Shown: in pieces, positions 1 through 19,124 of the stretch
How the letters are laid out: every line of letters begins with the position of its first letter
How positions within the stretch are numbered: the stretch's first letter is position 1
Source of the DNA: Demequinaceae bacterium
GTDB lineage: Bacteria; Actinomycetota; Actinomycetes; Actinomycetales; Demequinaceae
Length of the DNA: 64,000 nucleotides
Direction of reading: 5' to 3'
Assembly (NCBI GenBank): GCA_016933155.1
Contig: JAFGBM010000007.1
Span: 1-64,000, forward strand
Translations under genes and position numbers: made by a program
Notes under the pieces: generated by a model
The model's database searches: none
What the model was told of the DNA's origin: nothing
What the model saw: the letters and a program-made list of their open reading frames with translations, nothing else

Positions 1-36
1 GAGCTGGAGGCGGAGCTGGAGGCGGAGCTGGAGGCG
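1..36 (+). repeat. 12-bp tandem repeat in the HsdS central spacer
   Basis: Three perfect copies of gagctggaggcg, each encoding Glu-Leu-Glu-Ala, fill the first 36 bases and may continue upstream. In EcoR124-type HsdS proteins a 4-residue repeat in the same place sets the distance between the two target-recognition domains, and copy-number change alters the spacer length in the recognised DNA. The same role here is inferred from position and repeat length. Confidence 0.85.
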
Positions 37-693
37 CGGCGGGCGCAGTATGCCTACTACAGGCAGTTTCTGATCGGCCGAGTGGACGCCGAGCCGGTCA
101 CACTGGCGAGCCTTGGAAAGTGGCACGGGGGGATGACCCCATCGACGACGAATCCCCGGTATTGGGACTCGGGCGACATCCCTTGGCTCGCCTCGATGGA
201 CGTGAGCGACGAAGACACCGAACGGATTCGAGGCCGCATCACGCGCTTCGCTCTTGAGGAGACTTCACTTCGGGTCGTTTCCGCGCCGTCTGTTGCGGTA
301 GTAATGCGTTCGAACATCTTGCGTCGGCGACTGCCAATTGGCCTGATTAAGGTCGACACCGCTGTGAATCAGGATGTGCGCGCATTGGTCCCACACGACC
401 AAGTTGACGCTGGCTACGTTTACCAAGCTCTCCTCGCGGCCAGCGAACAAATCCGGAGCAAGTGCGTGCGCACGGACGGTTCAATGGCGGCGGTAGATTC
501 CAAGGGTTTCTTCGGTTGGGGCATTCCGCTGCCGCCGTTAGAAGAGCAGCGCCACATCGCAAACGAGCTTTCGACATTCGACGCGCTGGTGAACGATCTG
601 TCGTCGGGCCTGCCTGCGGAGATTGCCGCGCGTCGTGCCCAGTACGAGCACTACCGGGATCGGCTGCTGACCTTTGAGGAAGCGGCGGCATGA
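1..693 (+). CDS. hsdS: Type I restriction-modification specificity subunit HsdS (3' part)
   Basis: HsdS is the DNA-recognition subunit of a type I restriction-modification enzyme and binds HsdM and HsdR. The frame is open from base 1, so the first target-recognition domain and the start lie outside the window; 230 codons remain. They begin with the central spacer (ELEA repeats, then RRAQYAYYR), continue with the second target-recognition domain, and end with the distal conserved helix (PLEEQRHIA, then AARRAQYEHYRDRLL). The two RRAQY helices match each other, as is usual for this two-fold symmetric family. The stop overlaps the hsdR start (ATGA), so the two genes are translationally coupled. 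hsdM is presumably just upstream. Confidence 0.93.
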   Translation, partial: ELEAELEAELEARRAQYAYYRQFLIGRVDAEPVTLASLGKWHGGMTPSTTNPRYWDSGDIPWLASMDVSDEDTERIRGRITRFALEETSLRVVSAPSVAVVMRSNILRRRLPIGLIKVDTAVNQDVRALVPHDQVDAGYVYQALLAASEQIRSKCVRTDGSMAAVDSKGFFGWGIPLPPLEEQRHIANELSTFDALVNDLSSGLPAEIAARRAQYEHYRDRLLTFEEAAA

Positions 694-3600
694 GCGACAC
701 TGGGCCTGATCGCATCGGCGACAGCGACGACCCCCGCTTGTCGACGCGCCGCTTCGAGCCCATCGCGGTGAGCACCGAGAGCACGGTTGTCGCCGAGTTC
801 GTGCCCGACGCCGCCAAGGCGACCGCCTACCAGAGTGAGGCCGAGCTCGAGAGGGCGTTCATCGACCTGCTGAAGGAGCAGGCGTACGAGTACCTGCCGC
901 TGACGAGCGACGACGACCTGGTGGCGAACCTCCGTACGCAGTTGGCCGCACTCAACGCGATCGAGTTCTCCGACGCCGAGTGGACGAAATTCCTCACCGA
1001 GTGCATCGCGGGTGAGAAGGACACGATCGTCGAGAAAACGAAGCGCATCCAAGAGGACCACATCCAGATACTCAAGCGCGACGACGGGACAACCAAGAAC
1101 ATCTTCCTGATCGACAAGCAACAGATCCACAACAACCGCCTGCAGGTGATCAACCAGTACGAGGCCGAGGGGGCGCGTGCCAACCGTTACGACGTCACCG
1201 TGCTGGTCAACGGCTTGCCCATGGTGCACATCGAACTGAAGCGCCGCGGCGTCAAGATCCGCGAGGCGTTCAACCAGATCAACCGTTACCACCGCGACAG
1301 CTTCTGGGCCGGGTCAGGGCTGTTCGAGTACGTCCAACTCTTCGTGATCAGCAACGGCACCCGCACCAAGTACTACAGCAACACGACGCGCAGGCAGCAC
1401 ATCGACGAAGCGGCGGGCGCGAGGCGTGCAAGAAACACGTCCAACAGCTTCGAGTTCACCAGTTGGTGGGCCGACGCGAGCAACAAGCCCATTCAGGACC
1501 TCACCGGATTCGCCAAGACGTTCTTCGCCAAGCACACCATCCTCAACCTACTCACCCGGTACTGCGTCTTCACCGCCGACCGGTCCCTATTGGTGATGCG
1601 GCCGTACCAGATCGTCGCGACCGAGCGGATCCTCCAGCGCATCGTCGTCTCCACCAACGCGAAGACCGTCGGGACGTCAGCGGCGGGCGGCTACGTGTGG
1701 CACACGACCGGCTCCGGCAAGACGCTGACGAGCTTCAAGACCGCACAACTCGCCACTGGGCTCCCTAGCGTCACCAAGGTCATCTTCGTGGTGGACCGCA
1801 AGGACCTCGACTACCAGACGATGGTGGAGTACGACCGCTTCGAGAAGGGCGCCGCCAACTCGAGCAAGTCCACCCGCTTGCTGAAGCGGCTACTCGAAGA
1901 CCCTCAGAAGAGCATCGTCGTCACGACCATCCAGAAGCTCAGTCTGTTCGTTGAACGGAACAAGCGACACCCCGTCTACGGCGACCATGTGGTGATCATC
2001 TTCGACGAGTGCCACCGGTCCCAGTTTGGTGACATGCACACGGCCATTACCAAGGCGTTCCAGCGGTACAACCTGTTCGGATTCACAGGCACGCCCATTT
2101 TCGCCAAGAACTCACCCTCCGGCGGGAACCCCCAGCGGCGCACCACCGAGCAGGCCTTTGGAGAGAAGCTCCACGCGTACACGATCGTGGACGCCATTGG
2201 CGACAAGAACGTGCTGCCCTTTCGGATCGACTACCTCAACACCGTCGCCGTCAAGCCCGACGTGGTCGACAAGCAGGTGTCGGCGATCGACGCCGAGAAG
2301 GCGCTGCTCGATCCCAAGAGGATCGCGACGAACGTCGAGTACATCCGAAAGCACTTCGACCAGAAAACCAAACGAAACGAGGCCTACCGGCTTATGGATC
2401 GTCGGGTTACCGGATTCAACTCGCTCTTCGCGACCGCATCGATCGAGGCGGCGAAGCGGTACTACAACCAGTTCGCGAGACAGCAGTGGGACGTGCCCGA
2501 GGCACAGCGTCTCAAGGTCGCCATCATCTACAGCTTCGCGGCCAACGAGGATGACCTGGATGGCCTGCTGGCCGAAGAGGCGTTCGAGGTCGACGGACTG
2601 GATGCGACCTCTCGTGACTTCCTTGAGGATGCTATCCGCGACTACAACGACATGTTCAAGACGAACTTCGACACGTCATCGGACGGATTCCAGAACTACT
2701 ACAAGGACCTGTCGAAGCGCATCCGGGACCGCGACCTGGATCTCGTCATCGTCGTCAACATGTTCCTCACGGGCTTCGACGCCACGACGCTGAACACGCT
2801 GTGGGTGGACAAGAACCTGCGCCAACACGGGCTGCTTCAGGCGTTCTCCCGCACCAACCGCATCCTCAACTCGGTCAAGACGTACGGCAACATCGTCAGT
2901 TTCCGCGACCTTGAGGACGCGACCAACGAGGCGATCGCCCTGTTCGGCAACAAGGACGCGCGCGGCATCGTCCTGCTCAAGCCGTACGCCGAGTACTACG
3001 GCGAGTACAGCGAGAAGGTAGCCGAACTGCTGGAGCGCTACCCGCTGGGTGAGCCGATCGTCGGCGAGGCCACGCAGAAGGCCTTCATCGCGCTGTTCGG
3101 GGCGATCCTGAGGCTGCGCAACATCCTGCAGGCGTTCGACGAGTTCGTGGGTCACGAGATCCTGAGCCCCCGCCAGTTCCAGGACTACCAAAGCATCTAC
3201 CTGGACCTGTACCAGGAGTATCGGGCCATTGCCGATGCCGAGAAGGAGTCGATCAACGACGACGTGGTGTTCGAGATCGAGCTGATCAAGCAGGTCGAGA
3301 TCAACGTCGACTACATCCTGATGCTAGTCAGGAAGTACCAGGAGGGCATGGAACGGGACCTGGGCGCGGACAAGGAGATCAAGGCCCAGATCGACCGCGC
3401 CGTCGACTCCAGCGTCACCCTCCGAAGCAAGAAAGACCTCATTCAGGCCTTCGTCGACTCGCTCACGATCGAGGCCGCGGTGGACGCGGACTGGAAGACG
3501 TTCATCGCGGCACGGCGCGCTGAGGAACTCGATCTCATCATCTCCGAGGAGTCGCTCGACCGGGACGCGACCTACGCGTTTGTCGAACGGGCGTTCCGCG

Positions 3601-3749
3601 ACGGACTCGTCTCTGCGACGGGCATGGCCATCACGGAGATCCTTCCTCCGGTGTCGCGGTTCTCGCAGGGCGGCGAGCGCGCCGCGAAGAAGCAAGCCGT
3701 ACTCGACAAACTCACGGACTACTTCGAGAGGTTCTTCGGGATGGGGTGA
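690..3749 (+). CDS. hsdR: Type I restriction enzyme R subunit HsdR
   Basis: This is the motor and nuclease subunit of the type I restriction enzyme; it translocates DNA with ATP and cleaves it at a distance. The 1019 residues have the expected order. An N-terminal PD-(D/E)xK nuclease shows D168 and E182-L-K184. A superfamily-2 helicase core has Walker A GSGKT (about 341-345), DECHR (439-443) and GFTGTP (464-469), followed by the second RecA lobe (TGFDATTLNTLW) and a long helical C-terminus that contacts the methyltransferase. All key motifs are intact, so the gene looks functional. Its ATG overlaps the hsdS stop. Its 3' end runs directly into a truncated DUF429 gene, which marks an island edge. 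Confidence 0.95.
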   Translation: MSDTGPDRIGDSDDPRLSTRRFEPIAVSTESTVVAEFVPDAAKATAYQSEAELERAFIDLLKEQAYEYLPLTSDDDLVANLRTQLAALNAIEFSDAEWTKFLTECIAGEKDTIVEKTKRIQEDHIQILKRDDGTTKNIFLIDKQQIHNNRLQVINQYEAEGARANRYDVTVLVNGLPMVHIELKRRGVKIREAFNQINRYHRDSFWAGSGLFEYVQLFVISNGTRTKYYSNTTRRQHIDEAAGARRARNTSNSFEFTSWWADASNKPIQDLTGFAKTFFAKHTILNLLTRYCVFTADRSLLVMRPYQIVATERILQRIVVSTNAKTVGTSAAGGYVWHTTGSGKTLTSFKTAQLATGLPSVTKVIFVVDRKDLDYQTMVEYDRFEKGAANSSKSTRLLKRLLEDPQKSIVVTTIQKLSLFVERNKRHPVYGDHVVIIFDECHRSQFGDMHTAITKAFQRYNLFGFTGTPIFAKNSPSGGNPQRRTTEQAFGEKLHAYTIVDAIGDKNVLPFRIDYLNTVAVKPDVVDKQVSAIDAEKALLDPKRIATNVEYIRKHFDQKTKRNEAYRLMDRRVTGFNSLFATASIEAAKRYYNQFARQQWDVPEAQRLKVAIIYSFAANEDDLDGLLAEEAFEVDGLDATSRDFLEDAIRDYNDMFKTNFDTSSDGFQNYYKDLSKRIRDRDLDLVIVVNMFLTGFDATTLNTLWVDKNLRQHGLLQAFSRTNRILNSVKTYGNIVSFRDLEDATNEAIALFGNKDARGIVLLKPYAEYYGEYSEKVAELLERYPLGEPIVGEATQKAFIALFGAILRLRNILQAFDEFVGHEILSPRQFQDYQSIYLDLYQEYRAIADAEKESINDDVVFEIELIKQVEINVDYILMLVRKYQEGMERDLGADKEIKAQIDRAVDSSVTLRSKKDLIQAFVDSLTIEAAVDADWKTFIAARRAEELDLIISEESLDRDATYAFVERAFRDGLVSATGMAITEILPPVSRFSQGGERAAKKQAVLDKLTDYFERFFGMG

Positions 3750-4345: not shown

Positions 4346-4898
4346 ATGGCAAGGTCGGCACGTTAGCACTCAACTTCACGCTTTCGCCGACGAATCGCTG
4401 AAGGGCGGATTCAGCTTCGCGGTGGTGGTTCTAGCGTCGCAGGATGTCGATTCCTCTCGGCGCGCGGCCAGAACCATCACCCATCCCGGCACCGCCCGAT
4501 TCCACTCGGTTCACGAGAACCCGGCCCGGAAGCGCCACGCCCTCCGCGTGCTGCAGTCTGCGCCGATGAGTGTCCTGATTGTCGAATCGGCAGCGGACAC
4601 CCCACGTCGCCATGACCGGAGTAAGGCTCTGATCGTCGTCACTAAGTGGTGCGTCGCGAATGGTGTTTCGCGGCTGGTTCTTGAGCGTGACGATTCCCAC
4701 GTCCACGCGGACAGGCGACTGATACGCGAATCCACGATGGCGCTCCCCGACGAGCGAAGGATGGAGTACTACCACCTCCGCTCACGTGAGGAACCTCTAC
4801 TGTGGTTCGCCGACCTGATCGCGTGGTGCTGGTCGAGGGGAGGAGAGTGGCACGATCTGGCGCTCACCTTGGAGCCCACGGTCATCCGTGTGCCCTGA
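4346..4898 (+). pseudogene. DUF3800-like gene with an early frameshift
   Basis: The likely start is ATG 4346, with GGAGGA at 4328-4333. It reads only six codons (MARSAR) before TAG at 4364. Removing one T at 4363/4364 joins it to a frame that reads STQLHAFADESLKGGF and on to a TGA at 4896-4898. The D-E-S motif near the N-terminus and the C-terminal EEPLLWFADLIAW are typical of an actinobacterial DUF3800 subfamily, thought to have an RNase H-like fold. A GTG at 4422 would keep most of the protein but lose the D-E-S residues. It is therefore a frameshifted gene or a sequencing error. The stop codon lies inside a palindromic repeat. Confidence 0.7.
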
Positions 4899-4958
4899 GA
4901 AAGCGCGAAGCCTGGCTGGCCGACCATCCGGAAGGCTGCCAGGCTCACTTCTCAGGGC
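4887..4958. repeat. 72-nt palindromic repeat, copy 1
   Basis: The 72 nt at 4887-4958 are identical to 7623-7694 in the same orientation, 2,736 bp apart; weaker similarity continues about 80 nt further. The unit folds on itself. The outer arms GCCCTGAGAA (4892-4901) and TTCTCAGGGC (4949-4958) are perfectly complementary, as are the inner arms AGCCTGGC (4909-4916) and GCCAGGCT (4938-4945). It may be a REP-like element, a small MITE or a terminator-like hairpin. No transposase or clear target duplication is visible. Confidence 0.85.
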
Positions 4959-5082
4959 TAGTGCCCCTCGCACTCTCGACTCTACCAGCAGGTCGCGGGG
5001 ACGGCTAGCGTCTTCCACAGGACGGCCAGTGACCGAATCGGGACGAGGCGCCGCTTCCTCCGCGCGCGTCCGCTGCGGAGCC

Positions 5083-5208
5083 ATCCACAGGCGCCGCCAC
5101 GCCCATTGCCGGTGAACCTGAGCCCGACGTATCCTGAACGTGCAGGAGGGCGCGCAAGCGAACTCCCGACGCTCCCTCAGCCCCGGTCCTCCGGGGCTGA
5201 GGTGTTTG
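5083..5208 (+). ncRNA. Promoter-plus-hairpin cassette 1 (possible small RNA)
   Basis: In order there is an ATCCACA box (5083-5089), a -35 TTGCCG (5106-5111), an 18-nt spacer and a -10 TATCCT (5130-5135). About 40 nt later comes a perfect 12-bp hairpin, CCTCAGCCCCGG/CCGGGGCTGAGG (5175-5186 and 5191-5202, loop TCCT), followed by TGTTTG. A transcript would be roughly 60-65 nt with a terminator-like end. No credible protein is encoded. The unit is nearly repeated at 5450. Expression is inferred only. Confidence 0.4.
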
Positions 5209-5215
5209 CGGAGGT

Positions 5216-5449
5216 CGCGGACTACGGAAGGTGGGCCATTCAGCGGGAGCTTGAAGGCAGGAATTCCGAGTGGCTCGAAGCCTACGTGAGACCTTCCCTC
5301 GCTTCACTCAACACACCGTGGGGTGGGTCTTCGGCTCCTTGGGGCAGATAGGAAGCCGGCTATCTCGGTTTCCCGAGAAGGAGTCCCCTGGACCCCTTGT
5401 CACCGGCTTACCTTTCAAGGATACGGTACGCCGCGGGCATCCGCGAGGA
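5216..5449. other. Non-coding spacer between cassettes 1 and 2
   Basis: No recognisable gene or RNA is seen here. Short open frames cross the stretch but lack a ribosome-binding site and any family resemblance, and their start lies inside the repeated cassette. Confidence 0.5.
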
Positions 5450-5574
5450 ATCCACAGGCCCCGTCGCACCCATTGCCGGTGAACCTGAACCCGACGTATC
5501 CTGGAGGCGCAGGAGGGCGCGCAAGCGAACTCCCGCCATTCCCTCAGCCCCGGTTCTCCGGGGCTGAGGCGTTT
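5450..5574 (+). ncRNA. Promoter-plus-hairpin cassette 2 (possible small RNA)
   Basis: This near-copy of cassette 1 lies 367 bp downstream. It has an ATCCACA box (5450-5456), -35 TTGCCG (5473-5478), an 18-nt spacer, -10 TATCCT (5497-5502) and a 12-bp hairpin (5542-5553 and 5558-5569, loop TTCT), followed by CGTTT. The hairpin overlaps the last codons and stop of the DUF3800 gene on the opposite strand. A transcript would therefore be complementary to that mRNA's 3' end. Confidence 0.4.
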
Positions 5575-6257
5575 CCCAGGACCGTGAGCCATGTGGCGCT
5601 GTTGGCGATCACTGTCCAGAGTGCTGTTGCGGGTTGACGGAGCGGCAGAGCATCGGCTTCCTGCAACACGCGTCGTGCGACATATGCCACCATGTCGGCG
5701 GCCTGAATCATGCGACTCGAACGCGACGGAACGAAGTAGATCGTGTCGAGGAGTCTTGAGGGCCTATCCAAGGCCTCCATTCCACCGCGCAAGTGGAGGA
5801 AGTCGTCGCGATAATCGTCAGCCCCCGACACATCGTCGGCGACGAGAAGCACGTGCTCTTGACGTTCACGCATCTTGCGCCCCAAGACTCGTATCGCCGT
5901 GTCGAGACACATTCGGTACGCTAAAGCTGCGTTCAAGGGGGTTGCGGTGTGATCGGGCGCGGAATAGGCGACTACGAATACCCGCGCACCGGACGACGCG
6001 ACCGTGGTCAGCAAACGGTGGGCGAGGCGAAGGCGCAACCGCGTATCGCTTCGCAGAGGCGACCAGTCTCCCTTGTCTTGCATCACCTGCTGGGCATGGA
6101 TCTCGACATCGCGCGGGATCCCGAATGTCCCATGAGCCCACTCCGCTTCGGCGTCTAGGCTCGCGCAGATGGTCGGGACATCCTCTGGGTGCACCAGGAC
6201 GACGGCCAGCACGAACCGCTCGCGGTCGTAGCTCTCATCGATGTAGGCGAGGCGCAC
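5544..6257 (-). CDS. DUF3800 family protein (second copy)
   Basis: The protein has 237 residues from GTG 6257. I chose this start because the encoded MRLAYIDES aligns with the start of the third copy (MVLLAYVDES); upstream sequence in the same frame is antisense to the DUF3024 gene. It shows D7-E8-S9, a central LLVADDVSGADDY and a C-terminal SRMIQAADMVAYV. These acidic positions are the usual DUF3800 landmarks and suggest an RNase H-like nuclease fold, but the activity is not established. The last codons lie inside the hairpin of cassette 2. A CCTGTGGA box (6297-6304 on plus) is 39 nt before the start. It is divergent from the DUF3024 gene. Confidence 0.75.
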   Translation of the reverse strand: MRLAYIDESYDRERFVLAVVLVHPEDVPTICASLDAEAEWAHGTFGIPRDVEIHAQQVMQDKGDWSPLRSDTRLRLRLAHRLLTTVASSGARVFVVAYSAPDHTATPLNAALAYRMCLDTAIRVLGRKMRERQEHVLLVADDVSGADDYRDDFLHLRGGMEALDRPSRLLDTIYFVPSRSSRMIQAADMVAYVARRVLQEADALPLRQPATALWTVIANSATWLTVLGNASAPENRG

Positions 6258-6296
6258 CCGCCCAGGGTGGCGTAATCGTGGGGGCCGCGGGCGTTC

Positions 6297-6304
6297 TCCA
6301 CAGG
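6297..6304 (-). promoter_or_regulatory. TCCACAGG box between divergent DUF3800 and DUF3024 genes
   Basis: Read on the minus strand this is CCTGTGGAGAA, 39 nt upstream of the GTG at 6257. The same sequence occurs 37 nt upstream of the third DUF3800 gene, and the two flanks align over about 45 nt. It also lies 43 nt before the DUF3024 start on the plus strand. It could be a shared operator or part of a promoter. Confidence 0.4.
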
Positions 6305-6347
6305 TATCCCGTGGATCGCATGGATCAGGCACTGAAAGAGTGGTCGT

Positions 6348-6695
6348 GTGCCGACATCCACCCTCCCCGAGACCGATGTCGCCCGCATCCGCCGCTGGCT
6401 CTCCCCGAAGGTGCCGCCCAACCTCAGCGACGAGATCCGCATGGAACTCGACGTCGAGCCCCGCTACGTGACCATCTACGAGTGCCGCCCACCGTGGCGC
6501 GCCGACTTCGGGCCGGAGTGGACCCGTTTCCCCATCGCGAGGCTCCGCTACACCAAGGCCACGCGCACCTGGCAGCTCTATTGGCGCGACCGCCACCTCC
6601 GATTCCATATCTATGACCGCTTCCCGCCGAGCAACGACATCGAGGCCATCCTCAAACACATCGACGCCGACCCCACTCACATCTTCTGGGGGTAG
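6348..6695 (+). CDS. DUF3024 family protein
   Basis: This 115-residue protein of unknown function starts at GTG 6348. The conserved DUF3024 core is clear: an N-terminal helix (VARIRRWL), ECRPPWRADFGPEWTRFPIA, then LRYTKATRTWQLYWRDR, and the C-terminal signature DADPTHIFWG. Length and motifs match intact family members. The gene lies between two DUF3800 genes and is divergent from the second copy. Its base composition resembles its neighbours. A link to the DUF3800 genes is suggested only by position. Confidence 0.85.
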   Translation: MPTSTLPETDVARIRRWLSPKVPPNLSDEIRMELDVEPRYVTIYECRPPWRADFGPEWTRFPIARLRYTKATRTWQLYWRDRHLRFHIYDRFPPSNDIEAILKHIDADPTHIFWG

Positions 6696-6710
6696 GCGCC
6701 GGGGACCGCA

Positions 6711-6835
6711 ATCCACATCCTCATTCGAAGTCTTGAGCCACCGTCGCGGTCGGCGTATCCTGGCGTTGCGGTATTCGACTTCGGTCGTTTGCTGAACGCC
6801 TTGAGCCCCGGCCGTCGGTCGGGGCTCTCGTGCTT
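6711..6835 (+). ncRNA. Promoter-plus-hairpin cassette 3 (possible small RNA)
   Basis: This is a diverged third unit. It has ATCCACA (6711-6717), -35 TTGAGC (6733-6738), a 17-nt spacer, -10 TATCCT (6756-6761), an inner complementary pair GGCGTT/AACGCC and a terminator-like hairpin GAGCCCCG/CGGGGCTC (6803-6810 and 6820-6827), followed by TCGTGCTT. Only the order and spacing of elements match cassettes 1 and 2. It is convergent with the third DUF3800 gene, whose stop lies 37 nt past the hairpin, so the hairpin may terminate both transcripts. Confidence 0.4.
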
Positions 6836-6864
6836 CTGGCGCACCGCAGCGGCTGCGCCACCCC

Positions 6865-7569
6865 TCAGTTCGCGGGCTGGAGTCGACACCTGTCCAGCTG
6901 GCGGGCCATGTTGCATGCGGCATCCAACGCCCGGTCGCTTCGCACTAGCGGCGACCCGACGCGGCGAGTCACGTACGCGACAACATCGACAGCCTGAAGT
7001 AAACGGCTTGCGTGCGACGGGCCGAAGTGCAGAGCGTCAACGATGCGGTTGAGGCACGGTTCCGAGCTAGGTGCACCGGCCCCAACGCGGAGATCGGCAA
7101 GATGTCGTCGGTGGTGATCTTCGTCCGCAACCTCGTCGGCAATGAGAACGGCGTACTCGCCGGACCGCTCGCAGTGTGCTTGAACATGCCGTGAGACGGC
7201 AGCGAGCGCCACCTGGTACGTCGAGTCCACCGTAGCCGCCGTGGTAAACGGCGGGCACGCCGGAGCCGGTCGGACCTCACGCGTGAGAATCCGCGCGCCG
7301 CTCGCCGCGATGACGTCGACGACCTCGGCAAGAACCTTGACGCGATCATCCGCGCTCGCGCGCAACGGCATCCACGCGCCCTTTCCCGTCGCTACCGCGT
7401 GCGCGTGAATCTCCGCCGCGGGTGGCACACCATACGAGGTGCGGGCGCGGGCGACAACGGCGTCGAGGCCGTTGTTGACTCGCTCGGCCGCAGGGCCGTC
7501 AACGAGGAGAACGGCGAGGACGAAGTGCGACGCGTCGTAGCTCTCGTCGACGTAGGCCAACAACACCAT
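6865..7569 (-). CDS. DUF3800 family protein (third copy)
   Basis: The protein has 234 residues from ATG 7569; a GTG at 7611 would add 14 residues, but the alignment with the second copy favours 7569. It shows D8-E9-S10, a central LIADEVADEDHH and a C-terminal SRLLQAVDVVAYV. The second-copy protein is clearly a paralogue (YDASHFVLAV against YDRERFVLAV, EIHAHAV against EIHAQQV). It probably has an RNase H-like fold of unknown activity. A CCTGTGGA box lies 37 nt upstream (7607-7614 on plus), and the second palindromic repeat follows just beyond. Confidence 0.75.
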   Translation of the reverse strand: MVLLAYVDESYDASHFVLAVLLVDGPAAERVNNGLDAVVARARTSYGVPPAAEIHAHAVATGKGAWMPLRASADDRVKVLAEVVDVIAASGARILTREVRPAPACPPFTTAATVDSTYQVALAAVSRHVQAHCERSGEYAVLIADEVADEDHHRRHLADLRVGAGAPSSEPCLNRIVDALHFGPSHASRLLQAVDVVAYVTRRVGSPLVRSDRALDAACNMARQLDRCRLQPAN

Positions 7570-7606
7570 CCCATGGTGGCGCGCACGTGTGGGGCATTCC
7601 GAGTTC

Positions 7607-7614
7607 TCCACAGG
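7607..7614 (-). promoter_or_regulatory. TCCACAGG box upstream of the third DUF3800 gene
   Basis: On the minus strand it reads CCTGTGGAGAAC and lies 37 nt before ATG 7569, at nearly the same distance as in the second copy. See the box at 6297-6304. Confidence 0.4.
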
Positions 7615-7622
7615 GCGGATTT

Positions 7623-7694
7623 CGTGTGCCCTGAGAAAGCGCGAAGCCTGGCTGGCCGACCATCCGGAAGGCTGCCAGGCTCACTTCTCAGGGC
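7623..7694. repeat. 72-nt palindromic repeat, copy 2
   Basis: This is identical over 72 nt to 4887-4958, with weaker similarity to about 7776 that includes a further TCCACAGG (7750-7757). The two copies are direct repeats that bracket the DUF3800/DUF3024 cluster. Recombination between them would remove everything in between. Confidence 0.85.
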
Positions 7695-7790
7695 CAGTGC
7701 CCTTCGCAGCGTCAATTATGCCAGCAGGTCGCGGGAACGACGAGTGTCTTCCACAGGACGCTCTGTGACCCAATCGTGACGCCGCGACCC

Positions 7791-7852
7791 TTCCGCCTCG
7801 CGCCTCTCCGCTGCTAAGGTCACATGCTCGTGCGCGTGGAAAGCCCACGCGC
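7791..7852 (+). promoter_or_regulatory. Candidate promoter and leader hairpin upstream of rtcB
   Basis: A possible -35 TTCCGC (7791-7796), an 18-nt spacer and a -10 TAAGGT (7815-7820, fitting the actinobacterial TAnnnT pattern) are followed by a perfect 8-bp hairpin GCGCGTGG/CCACGCGC (7832-7839 and 7845-7852, loop AAAGC). It lies ahead of a small reading frame and rtcB. This is pattern evidence only. Confidence 0.35.
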
Positions 7853-16976: not shown

Positions 16977-19124
16977 ATGAGAGTCATCCTCCTTCGAGCG
17001 GCAGCAGCGCCAGCCATGGCTAGCCTCGTCCTTGTCCTGGTCGCAGCGCCCGCTTCGGGAAGCCTGTCGACGGTCACCGTGGGGGACTGCGATTATAGCT
17101 ACGACGACTCCGACATCGCTGCCGGCGCAACCATCACCGGATGCTCGAGCGAGATCCACGAACTCGTCATCCCCGAGACCGTCGAAATCGACTACATGGA
17201 ATACTCCATCACGGCCATCGGCGAGTCCGCGTTCAGGCATGGCCTTCAACGCGTCGTCATTCCCGATTCTGTGGTCACGATCCATGACAACGCGTTCCGT
17301 GGAAGCGATCTCATGACCGTGGAGATCCCCGACTCCGTCACGACCATTGGAGCCTACGCCTTCTCCAGGAACGAATTGACGTCGATCACAATAGGCAGCT
17401 CCATCACCGCCATCTACGACGGCGCATTCGATGGCAACAACCTGACCTCCTTCACAATCCCCGATTCCGTCACGACGATTGGAAGCAACGCCTTCAGCTT
17501 CAATGACCTCACCTCGCTTGTCATCCCCGAATCCGTGACCTCCATCGGCAACGCCGCGTTCTCCGGCAACGACCTCACCTCGCTTGTCATCGGGGACTCC
17601 GTGACCGTCATCGGCGACTCGGCTTTCTCCGGCAACGACCTCACCTCGGTCGTCATCCCTGACTCTGTGACCTCCATCGGCAGCCTCGCGTTCTCCGGCA
17701 ACGACCTCACCTCGCTTGTCATCGGGGATTCCGTGACCGTCATCGGCGACTCGGCGTTCTCCGGCAACGACCTCGCCTCGGTCGTCATCCCCAACTCCGT
17801 CGAGAGCATCGGCGACCGAGCGTTCCTAGGCAACGGGTTGGTCTCGGTCACCATGGGAGACTCTGTTGACGTCATCGGCGAATCAGCGTTCCGTGGAAAC
17901 AGCCTCGCCTCGATTGTCATCCCCGACTCCGTGACCGTCATCGACGACTCCGCGTTCATGGACAATGCGCTGACCTCGGTCGTCATCCCCGGCTCCCTGA
18001 CGAGAATCGATGACGCAGTATTCCAAGGCAACGTGCTTACTTCGATCGTCATCCCCGACTCCGTGATCACCATCGGAGACTCAGCATTCCAGGGTAATGC
18101 GCTTGCCTCTATCGCCATCCCCGACTCCGTGATGGCTATCGGAGACTCCGCGTTCGCAGGCAACGAGATCGCCTCCCTTTCCATCGGGAATTCCGTCGAG
18201 ATCATCAGCAACTCCGCATTCTCCGGCAGCCTGCTGACGACGGTTGTCATCCCCGACTCCGTGATCACCATCGGAGCCTCGGCCTTCTATGGCGGCACGC
18301 TCATCTCGGTCACCATAGGAGGCTCCGTCGAGACCATCGGCGAACGCGCCTTCTCTCATAACGCGCTGACCTCGGTCACCATAGGGGATTCTGTCGAGGA
18401 CATCGGTGAATACGCGTTTTCCGACAACGCGCTGACCTCCGTCACGATCCCCGATTCGGTGACCACCATCGCCGCCTGCGTATTCCAGGACAACGCGCTG
18501 ACCTCGGTCACCCTGGGAGATTCCGTCACCTACATCAGCGACTCGGCCTTTGCCGACAACGCGCTTGCTTCGATTGCCCTCCCGGACTCCCTGAGAATGA
18601 TTGGGAGTGCCGCATTCTCCGGCAACGATCTTGCATCGATCACCATCCCCGGGGCCGTGACCACCATCCATCGGAAGGCCTTCAGCGAGAACCCACTTGA
18701 GGTGGTTCGGATGCTGGGGCCAGCCCCGACTACCCTCGGGGACGAGGCCTTCGGACCGGGAGGCGATACGCCACTCATCCTCTTCGATGAAGGTTACGGG
18801 GACTCCGGCTACACGGAGCCGTTCTGGAACGTGGCGGGTGCGCGCTACCCGGCGAAGGCCGTGGAGTCGCCAGAATCGGCTCCGGCTGAATACGACCCCG
18901 AGGAGATCGACGGCTCCCATTCGTTGCGGTACCCCGTCTTCGCTGTAGCCATTCTGGTTCTTGCCGGGTTGGCGATGGTCGTATTCATCCGACCCCGCAA
19001 CACACGAGACCCATCGCCCATGGTCCCGGCCTCTCAGCCCCCCACCCTGGGAAGGTCGCCCAATCAACGCTCATCCTCGCTTGAAGACGGGGCACTATCC
19101 GCTCCATTTGACTGGTTGTCCTAG
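16977..19124 (+). CDS. BspA-type leucine-rich-repeat surface protein
   Basis: This 715-residue protein has an N-terminal export signal (ending about PASG), about 22-24 tandem repeats of 22 residues, and a C-terminal membrane span (FAVAILVLAGLAMVVF) with a basic stop-transfer and short cytoplasmic tail. The repeat core reads like LTSVVIPDSVTxIGxxAF, the LRR_5/BspA pattern. Repeats alternate between IP- and IG-containing forms. Proteins of this type bind host or matrix components in other bacteria; here the ligand is unknown. There is no LPxTG motif, so it is held by its membrane span. Some repeats are nearly identical in DNA, which indicates recent duplication. Confidence 0.88.
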   Translation: MRVILLRAAAAPAMASLVLVLVAAPASGSLSTVTVGDCDYSYDDSDIAAGATITGCSSEIHELVIPETVEIDYMEYSITAIGESAFRHGLQRVVIPDSVVTIHDNAFRGSDLMTVEIPDSVTTIGAYAFSRNELTSITIGSSITAIYDGAFDGNNLTSFTIPDSVTTIGSNAFSFNDLTSLVIPESVTSIGNAAFSGNDLTSLVIGDSVTVIGDSAFSGNDLTSVVIPDSVTSIGSLAFSGNDLTSLVIGDSVTVIGDSAFSGNDLASVVIPNSVESIGDRAFLGNGLVSVTMGDSVDVIGESAFRGNSLASIVIPDSVTVIDDSAFMDNALTSVVIPGSLTRIDDAVFQGNVLTSIVIPDSVITIGDSAFQGNALASIAIPDSVMAIGDSAFAGNEIASLSIGNSVEIISNSAFSGSLLTTVVIPDSVITIGASAFYGGTLISVTIGGSVETIGERAFSHNALTSVTIGDSVEDIGEYAFSDNALTSVTIPDSVTTIAACVFQDNALTSVTLGDSVTYISDSAFADNALASIALPDSLRMIGSAAFSGNDLASITIPGAVTTIHRKAFSENPLEVVRMLGPAPTTLGDEAFGPGGDTPLILFDEGYGDSGYTEPFWNVAGARYPAKAVESPESAPAEYDPEEIDGSHSLRYPVFAVAILVLAGLAMVVFIRPRNTRDPSPMVPASQPPTLGRSPNQRSSSLEDGALSAPFDWLS
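17508..17771 (+). repeat. Duplicated 132-bp block in the LRR gene
   Basis: Bases 17508-17639 and 17640-17771 each encode two 22-residue LRR units. The second units of each block (17574-17639 and 17706-17771) encode identical peptides and differ by two bases in 66, which shows a recent in-frame tandem duplication. Confidence 0.85.

Follow-up and report, generated by a model that had tools for sequence, protein, structure and literature searches.

The window, by which we mean the whole stretch of 64,000 nucleotides analysed here, opens inside an hsdS gene on a 12-bp tandem array, and the locus raises the question whether this array is a spacer whose unit number can alter the DNA site recognised by a restriction-modification system or a linker of fixed length. 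A precedent is EcoR124, whose hsdS specifies GAA N6 RTCG with two TAEL units (EcoR124I) and GAA N7 RTCG with three (EcoR124II), the unit number changing by unequal crossing-over; in its available text, the Loenen review from which this account is taken leaves as a question how the coiled coil accepts an extra turn in one helix alone (PMC3874165). The type IC repeats listed in the accessible part of another source are TAEL, LEAT, SEAL and TSEL (PMC10030836). A literature text search for ELEA strings found no paper, such strings being seldom printed, and a title-level search, with subscription journals mostly outside its scope, found no title for a survey of unit numbers together with lengths of the second helix, D2.

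The array consists of three copies of GAGCTGGAGGCG with 100% matches, and its in-frame translation is ELEAELEAELEA; RRAQYAYYR and a Methylase_S domain come next (Table 1). A sequence-only reading of this DNA had described three perfect ELEA-encoding copies, and had placed them in the helix between the two target recognition domains (TRDs), where EcoR124-type enzymes carry their repeat. Both statements held: EcoR124 HsdS (PDB 7bst chain A) aligns ungapped through the array and the RxxQY segment beyond, so that a first helix (D1) with two TAEL units equals in length one with three ELEA units. The further statement that slippage by one unit would keep the frame agrees with the 12-bp unit and with close relatives that differ by whole units. 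All three units use the same codons, for which the chance is about 8e-4, given the peptide ELEA x3 and the codon usage of hsdS itself. The F-to-QY length of D2 in the window is that which D1 would have if it held four units.

Table 1. Coordinates of the hsd features in the window and of the hsdS copies with long arrays found elsewhere
Feature	Position	Strand	Remarks
12-bp tandem array, 3 perfect ELEA units visible, helix D1 of HsdS	1..36	+	stops at contig end
Remainder of helix D1 (RRAQYAYYRQFLI), conserved [RK]xQYxYYR segment	37..75	+	end placed by hand
hsdS C-terminal part, open at contig end; TRD2	1..693	+	Pfam Methylase_S E 1.9e-12; 7bst_A E 2.2e-52
Second helix D2 (around LSTFDALVNDLSSGLPAEIAARRAQYEHYR)	559..666	+	limits placed by hand from EcoR124 HsdS alignment
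hsdR (HSDR_N, SWI2_SNF2, EcoR124_C)	690..3749	+	EcoR124 HsdR E about 3e-250
hsdS copies with long arrays	L125:4953 and L126:7404		reverse-complement coordinates

Judged by homology, the system is a type IC (EcoR124-like) restriction-modification system. HsdR carries the EcoR124_C domain (E 1.4e-70) and has EcoR124 HsdR chains as its best solved relatives; the closest solved chain to HsdM is the M subunit of EcoR124 (7bst_D, E 4.7e-188; next 5.1e-97), and the C-terminal half of HsdS has EcoR124 HsdS (7bst_A) as its best solved relative. The N-terminal half, with TRD1, matches EcoR124 HsdS weakly (3.3e-8), two other S subunits scoring slightly better, as is expected of a different TRD1. Each half of HsdS contains a Methylase_S domain, the halves lying on two contigs, and in the central helix ELEA x3 is aligned on TAEL.

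The window corresponds to C9:1-64000 in a genome assembly of 15 contigs that totals 1.885 Mb, and its first base is a contig end. The 36-bp array recurs once in the genome, on the minus strand at the end of contig C6. Read from its array end, C6 carries hsdM, a gene for an Mrr-like endonuclease (Mrr_N, Mrr_cat) and the N-terminal half of hsdS, whose frame is left open at the contig end with ...ILDRFTELEAELEAELEA; C6 and C9 overlap by exactly three units and no flanking base. We infer that both contigs belong to one operon broken inside the array, C6 carrying hsdM-mrr-hsdS(N) and C9 hsdS(C)-hsdR, because the only two Methylase_S matches found in a search of the genome lie at these ends and because the order hsdM, mrr, hsdS, hsdR recurs in six relatives (L038, L050, L054, L123, L124 and L163, with a larger gap before hsdR in L123). 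In L064, L099 and L167 mrr precedes hsdM, and the L080 piece starts within mrr. Since the array spans the contig break, three is the stretch common to two broken ends and no resolved copy number; the true unit number is at least three, if the contig ends are taken as they stand.

Other contig ends of this assembly are likewise repetitive. The ends of C12 and C15 have 54 bp in common, made up of three 18-bp units, another contig break in a repeat; those of C7 and C8 consist of internally repeated sequence; and a 61-bp stretch near rpoC and rpoB, as named from their reading frames, is common to C8 and C14. The Mrr-like gene between hsdM and hsdS (L005:585-1499, contig C6, minus strand) has homologues within or adjoining hsd operons in 10 other loci, and a search with its protein returned no solved relative at E 0.001. 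An Mrr-like, possibly modification-dependent nuclease next to a specificity-switching methylase would be an odd pairing.

How common such arrays are was addressed with a degenerate FTELEAELEA pattern run against genome contigs, which retrieved at least 119 stretches. As the pattern requires FT and two ELEA units, arrays of n=0 or n=1 and those with other unit residues are invisible to it, and short-read assemblies are expected to under-represent long arrays. The matches listed come from many phyla, including Actinomycetota, Bacteroidota, Pseudomonadota, Bacillota, several Patescibacteria, Omnitrophota and Spirochaetia, together with two archaeal records. Viral contigs gave eight matches of their own, with n of 2 to 4. 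The 119 listed loci hold 120 matches, from which one duplicate was removed; the resulting 119 arrays comprise 66 with three units, 37 with four, 12 with two and 2 with ten, besides single arrays of 7 and of 17 units. Complete arrays, that is, those uncut by a piece end, number 115 among the matches listed, and in 102 of them F-to-QY spans 17 or 21 residues, 55 having the EcoR124I length and 47 the EcoR124II length; the other 13 span 13 residues (6), 15, 33, 45 (2) or 73, or were unscored (2). Within the host's order, the motif is present in 8 of 396 genomes, the own genome included. A search with the N-terminal half of hsdS gave any match in 24 of the 99 genomes searched, again counting the own genome, and none in the one congeneric genome searched (G001).

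Within arrays, the units are far more alike than the encoded peptide demands. Of 291 pairs of adjacent units among the matches listed, 239 are identical, against 11.1 expected and a maximum of 22 in 1000 simulation runs with codons drawn from the same gene, two loci with too few codons being skipped; a smaller first run had given 190 of 227 pairs against 8.2 expected, also among the matches listed. Codon choice differs between arrays, with 31 distinct first units among 88 listed loci, and units are mostly identical within them. Among 107 listed arrays with at least three units, all units agree in 63; the last unit alone deviates in 35 and the first alone in 5, and 4 show some other pattern. 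Such synonymous identity, far beyond codon usage, is what slippage predicts.

A second short repeat follows the ELEA array at a distance of 45-71 bp in 10 of the 119 loci listed (L063, L074, L078, L141, L158, L178; L125, L126; L073, L123). Five of these repeats are (GCAA)n or (AAGC)n and one is (ACAG)12, two are octamers and two have two-base units; changes in a tetranucleotide repeat of this kind would shift the frame and could yield a half-length HsdS.

Gain and loss of whole units can be followed between close relatives. L083 (n=4) and L102 (n=3) are 97.6% identical over 541 bp upstream, L088 (n=2) and L097 (n=3) are 96.2% identical over 600 bp downstream, and L125 (n=7) and L126 (n=17), from one Rhodobacteraceae metagenome bin, agree at 100% over 405 bp upstream. 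In this last pair, the octamer downstream is present in 7 copies in L125 and 6 in L126, and both reading frames end early.

Escherichia coli provides the largest comparison. Of 5426 genomes, 1279 match a D1 query that carries three TAEL units. A sample of 60 rows spaced evenly over 1370 records includes 22 with an unchanged match span and 31 with one shorter by 12 bases; the other seven rows differ by -6 (2), -18, -24 and +24 bases or are multi-piece (two). One of the 22 unchanged rows, H247, ends before the array, and therefore 21 rows fit three units. Five sample rows were read: H203 (-12) holds two units, H227 (+24) five, H236 (-24) a single TAKL-like unit, H225 (-6) three units with another 6-bp difference, and H232 (-18) two units with the same 6-bp difference. 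For a single full-length hsdS allele, 60 records with a coverage of at least 80% were compared by span, giving three TAEL units in 44, two in 11, four in 1 and one in 1; an insertion sequence interrupts 2 more, and the remaining record, a 95.6% relative, differs in length. Apart from unit number, the versions of this allele with one to four units are identical or near-identical in sequence. These counts rest on span lengths, apart from three cases checked base by base: Esc29 (L219) has exactly one unit more than Esc1 (L221), strain 21437 has exactly two fewer than Esc1, and 5CRE51 differs from P30_L1_05.20 (two versus three units) by one unit, seen as a 12-bp gap, and one substitution. The Esc series accounts for 28 listed records, 27 of them with three units and one, Esc29, with four. 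Its genomes are mostly near 5.1565 Mb, which points to a recent gain in one clone; as the series is near-identical, 27 of the 44 three-unit records are not independent. At the level of sequence, unit change in relatives is thereby demonstrated.

A compensating lengthening of the partner helix D2 with n was considered and rejected, the GLP-to-QY distance staying at 11 residues in 66 of 96 loci among the matches listed (n=2: 4, n=3: 36, n=4: 24, n=10: 2). The 96 loci include repeats of one locus (e.g., L058 and L064), and the pattern admitted 2-8 variable residues, so that a very long D2 would go unscored. The 30 loci without a D2 match, n=7 and n=17 among them, are early stops, cut pieces or variants missed by the pattern; the frames with n=7 and n=17 end early, and no D2 turned up in them. 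In F-to-QY length, D2 equals a D1 of four units. The scorable genes thus show no matching D2 change, at least as far as this pattern reaches, which bears on the question put in the available text of the Loenen review (PMC3874165).

Three other explanations of the locus have to be weighed, two of which concern the assembly. That the two contig ends stem from different hsdS genes or strains and do not join is highly improbable: none of the sequences compared spans the junction, and 36 bp of repeat is weak evidence on its own, but the genome search gave exactly two Methylase_S matches, one per end, and the six relatives with hsdM, mrr, hsdS and hsdR in order speak against it as well. It is also conceivable, and in our view unlikely, that the assembly hides a longer array of six or more units, the contigs stopping where reads or k-mers could not resolve the repeat. 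Both contigs do end exactly at the array edge with 36 bp in common, the contigs of L109 and L145 (among the matches listed) likewise break off within their arrays, after 36 and 34 bases, and arrays of 7, 10, 10 and 17 units exist among the matches listed; however, three- or four-unit helix lengths prevail among the complete arrays listed (102 of 115), and elsewhere in this assembly contig ends overlap by 52, 54 and 61 bp, which leaves 36 unexplained by a single k-mer length. By the same lengths, the idea that a fixed assembler k-mer produced the overlap of 36 bp is unsupported.

The third explanation, a static linker, is the most serious of these and a real possibility, if short of a probable one. 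In this case, the units would be remnants of past duplication, one length would be selected, and switching would not occur at a working frequency. Here the comparison of repeat number among relatives, which the sequence-only reading had proposed, divides: whole-unit differences are found in E. coli and among survey loci, but a plasmid search that matched 27 records, of which 13 were read (10 Enterococcus, 3 actinobacterial), gave a single helix length, equivalent to four ELEA units, in 10 of 10 Enterococcus hsdS genes with several different TRDs. Three of these stretches are identical and two others 99.8% alike, so that they represent fewer than ten independent cases. One of them, L208, shows a Glu-to-Asp variant that has extended to three units, and units therefore appear to turn over while length is held. 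The actinobacterial plasmid genes have the three-unit length in L209 and L210 and the four-unit length in L211, with degenerate units in L210 and L211. Selection for length may outweigh slippage in some lineages, and a static linker would also agree with the mostly two values of length among the matches listed elsewhere. Counted against a switch are, in addition, the shortness of an array of three units and the 44 of 60 E. coli allele records at three units. Against the static linker stands that the same E. coli allele occurs with one to four units, including an extra unit within a near-identical genome series.

On this evidence, the array is probably the D1 spacer repeat of a type IC specificity subunit, in which gain or loss of units would shift the recognised half-sites. 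Each ELEA unit would add about one helical turn between the two TRDs; units would be gained or lost in frame by slipped-strand mispairing or unequal crossing-over, with both TRDs unchanged, and a change by one unit should move the two half-sites apart or together by one base pair. By helix length, three ELEA units correspond to EcoR124I, with N6 expected, and four to EcoR124II, with N7 expected. In this species, the array would slip accordingly in length, with the spacer (N6 at three units) and methylation following. The significance of such a spacer repeat would be that a slip of one unit alters the restriction target and the methylation site in one step, the TRDs remaining untouched. Should such arrays be confined for the most part to two lengths in distant lineages, specificity may commonly vary by spacer switching, a form of variation that is little counted and that broken assemblies can hide.

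A bolder extension, which we regard as doubtful, would be that the assembly caught the switch itself, in cells with three and cells with four or more units whose assembly graph split at the shared units, and that ELEA/TAEL arrays form a two-state N6/N7 switch across many bacterial phyla and some archaea, D1 changing in length and D2 never. The three-unit overlap of both ends fits a mixed population with three and more units, but this reading is a guess, and the overlap may equally be read as the mark of a long array.

The window contains further repeats. Two dispersed families, one of 184 nt at 86% (window 4887-5070 and 7623-7806) and one of 130 nt at 88% (5078-5207 and 5445-5574), surround two minus-strand DUF3800 frames (5547-6923 and 6868-7611); contig C6 repeats, with 2 mismatches, a 25-bp core from the 184-nt family. 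At window 17433-18565, 66-bp tandem repeats have the consensus NDLTSLVIPDSVTAIGNSAFSG, which presumably resembles BspA-type leucine-rich repeats.

As a principle, variation by short repeats in HsdS is already known from EcoR124, gonococcal LEAT and Mycoplasma AELS, and the ELEA array adds one more case. In Mycoplasma pneumoniae, hsdS genes carry 12-bp repeats (AELS/TELS) whose copy number varies between strains and passages (PMC4537597; see also PMC8836594), in arrays that reach at least 33 copies (PMC4537597). The likeness lies in the 12-bp, four-residue repeat in the first dimerisation helix; unlike the ten hsdS genes of M. pneumoniae, for which the available text of that source gives no intact hsdR (PMC4537597), there is here one hsdS with a full-length hsdR. 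NgoAV of Neisseria gonorrhoeae also has a four-residue repeat, LEAT, at the centre of HsdS that affects NgoAV specificity, but possesses a second, frame-shifting site according to the accessible part of its description (PMC6789123), the like of which was not noticed in the hsdS part at window 1-693. Closest is the EcoR124I/EcoR124II pair, as far as its available description extends (PMC3874165): the operon proteins, the repeat site in helix D1 and the 12-bp, four-residue unit are the same, and the helix lengths with three and four ELEA units equal those with two and three TAEL units, whereas the unit is ELEA here and TAEL there, and an Mrr-like gene lies here between hsdM and hsdS.
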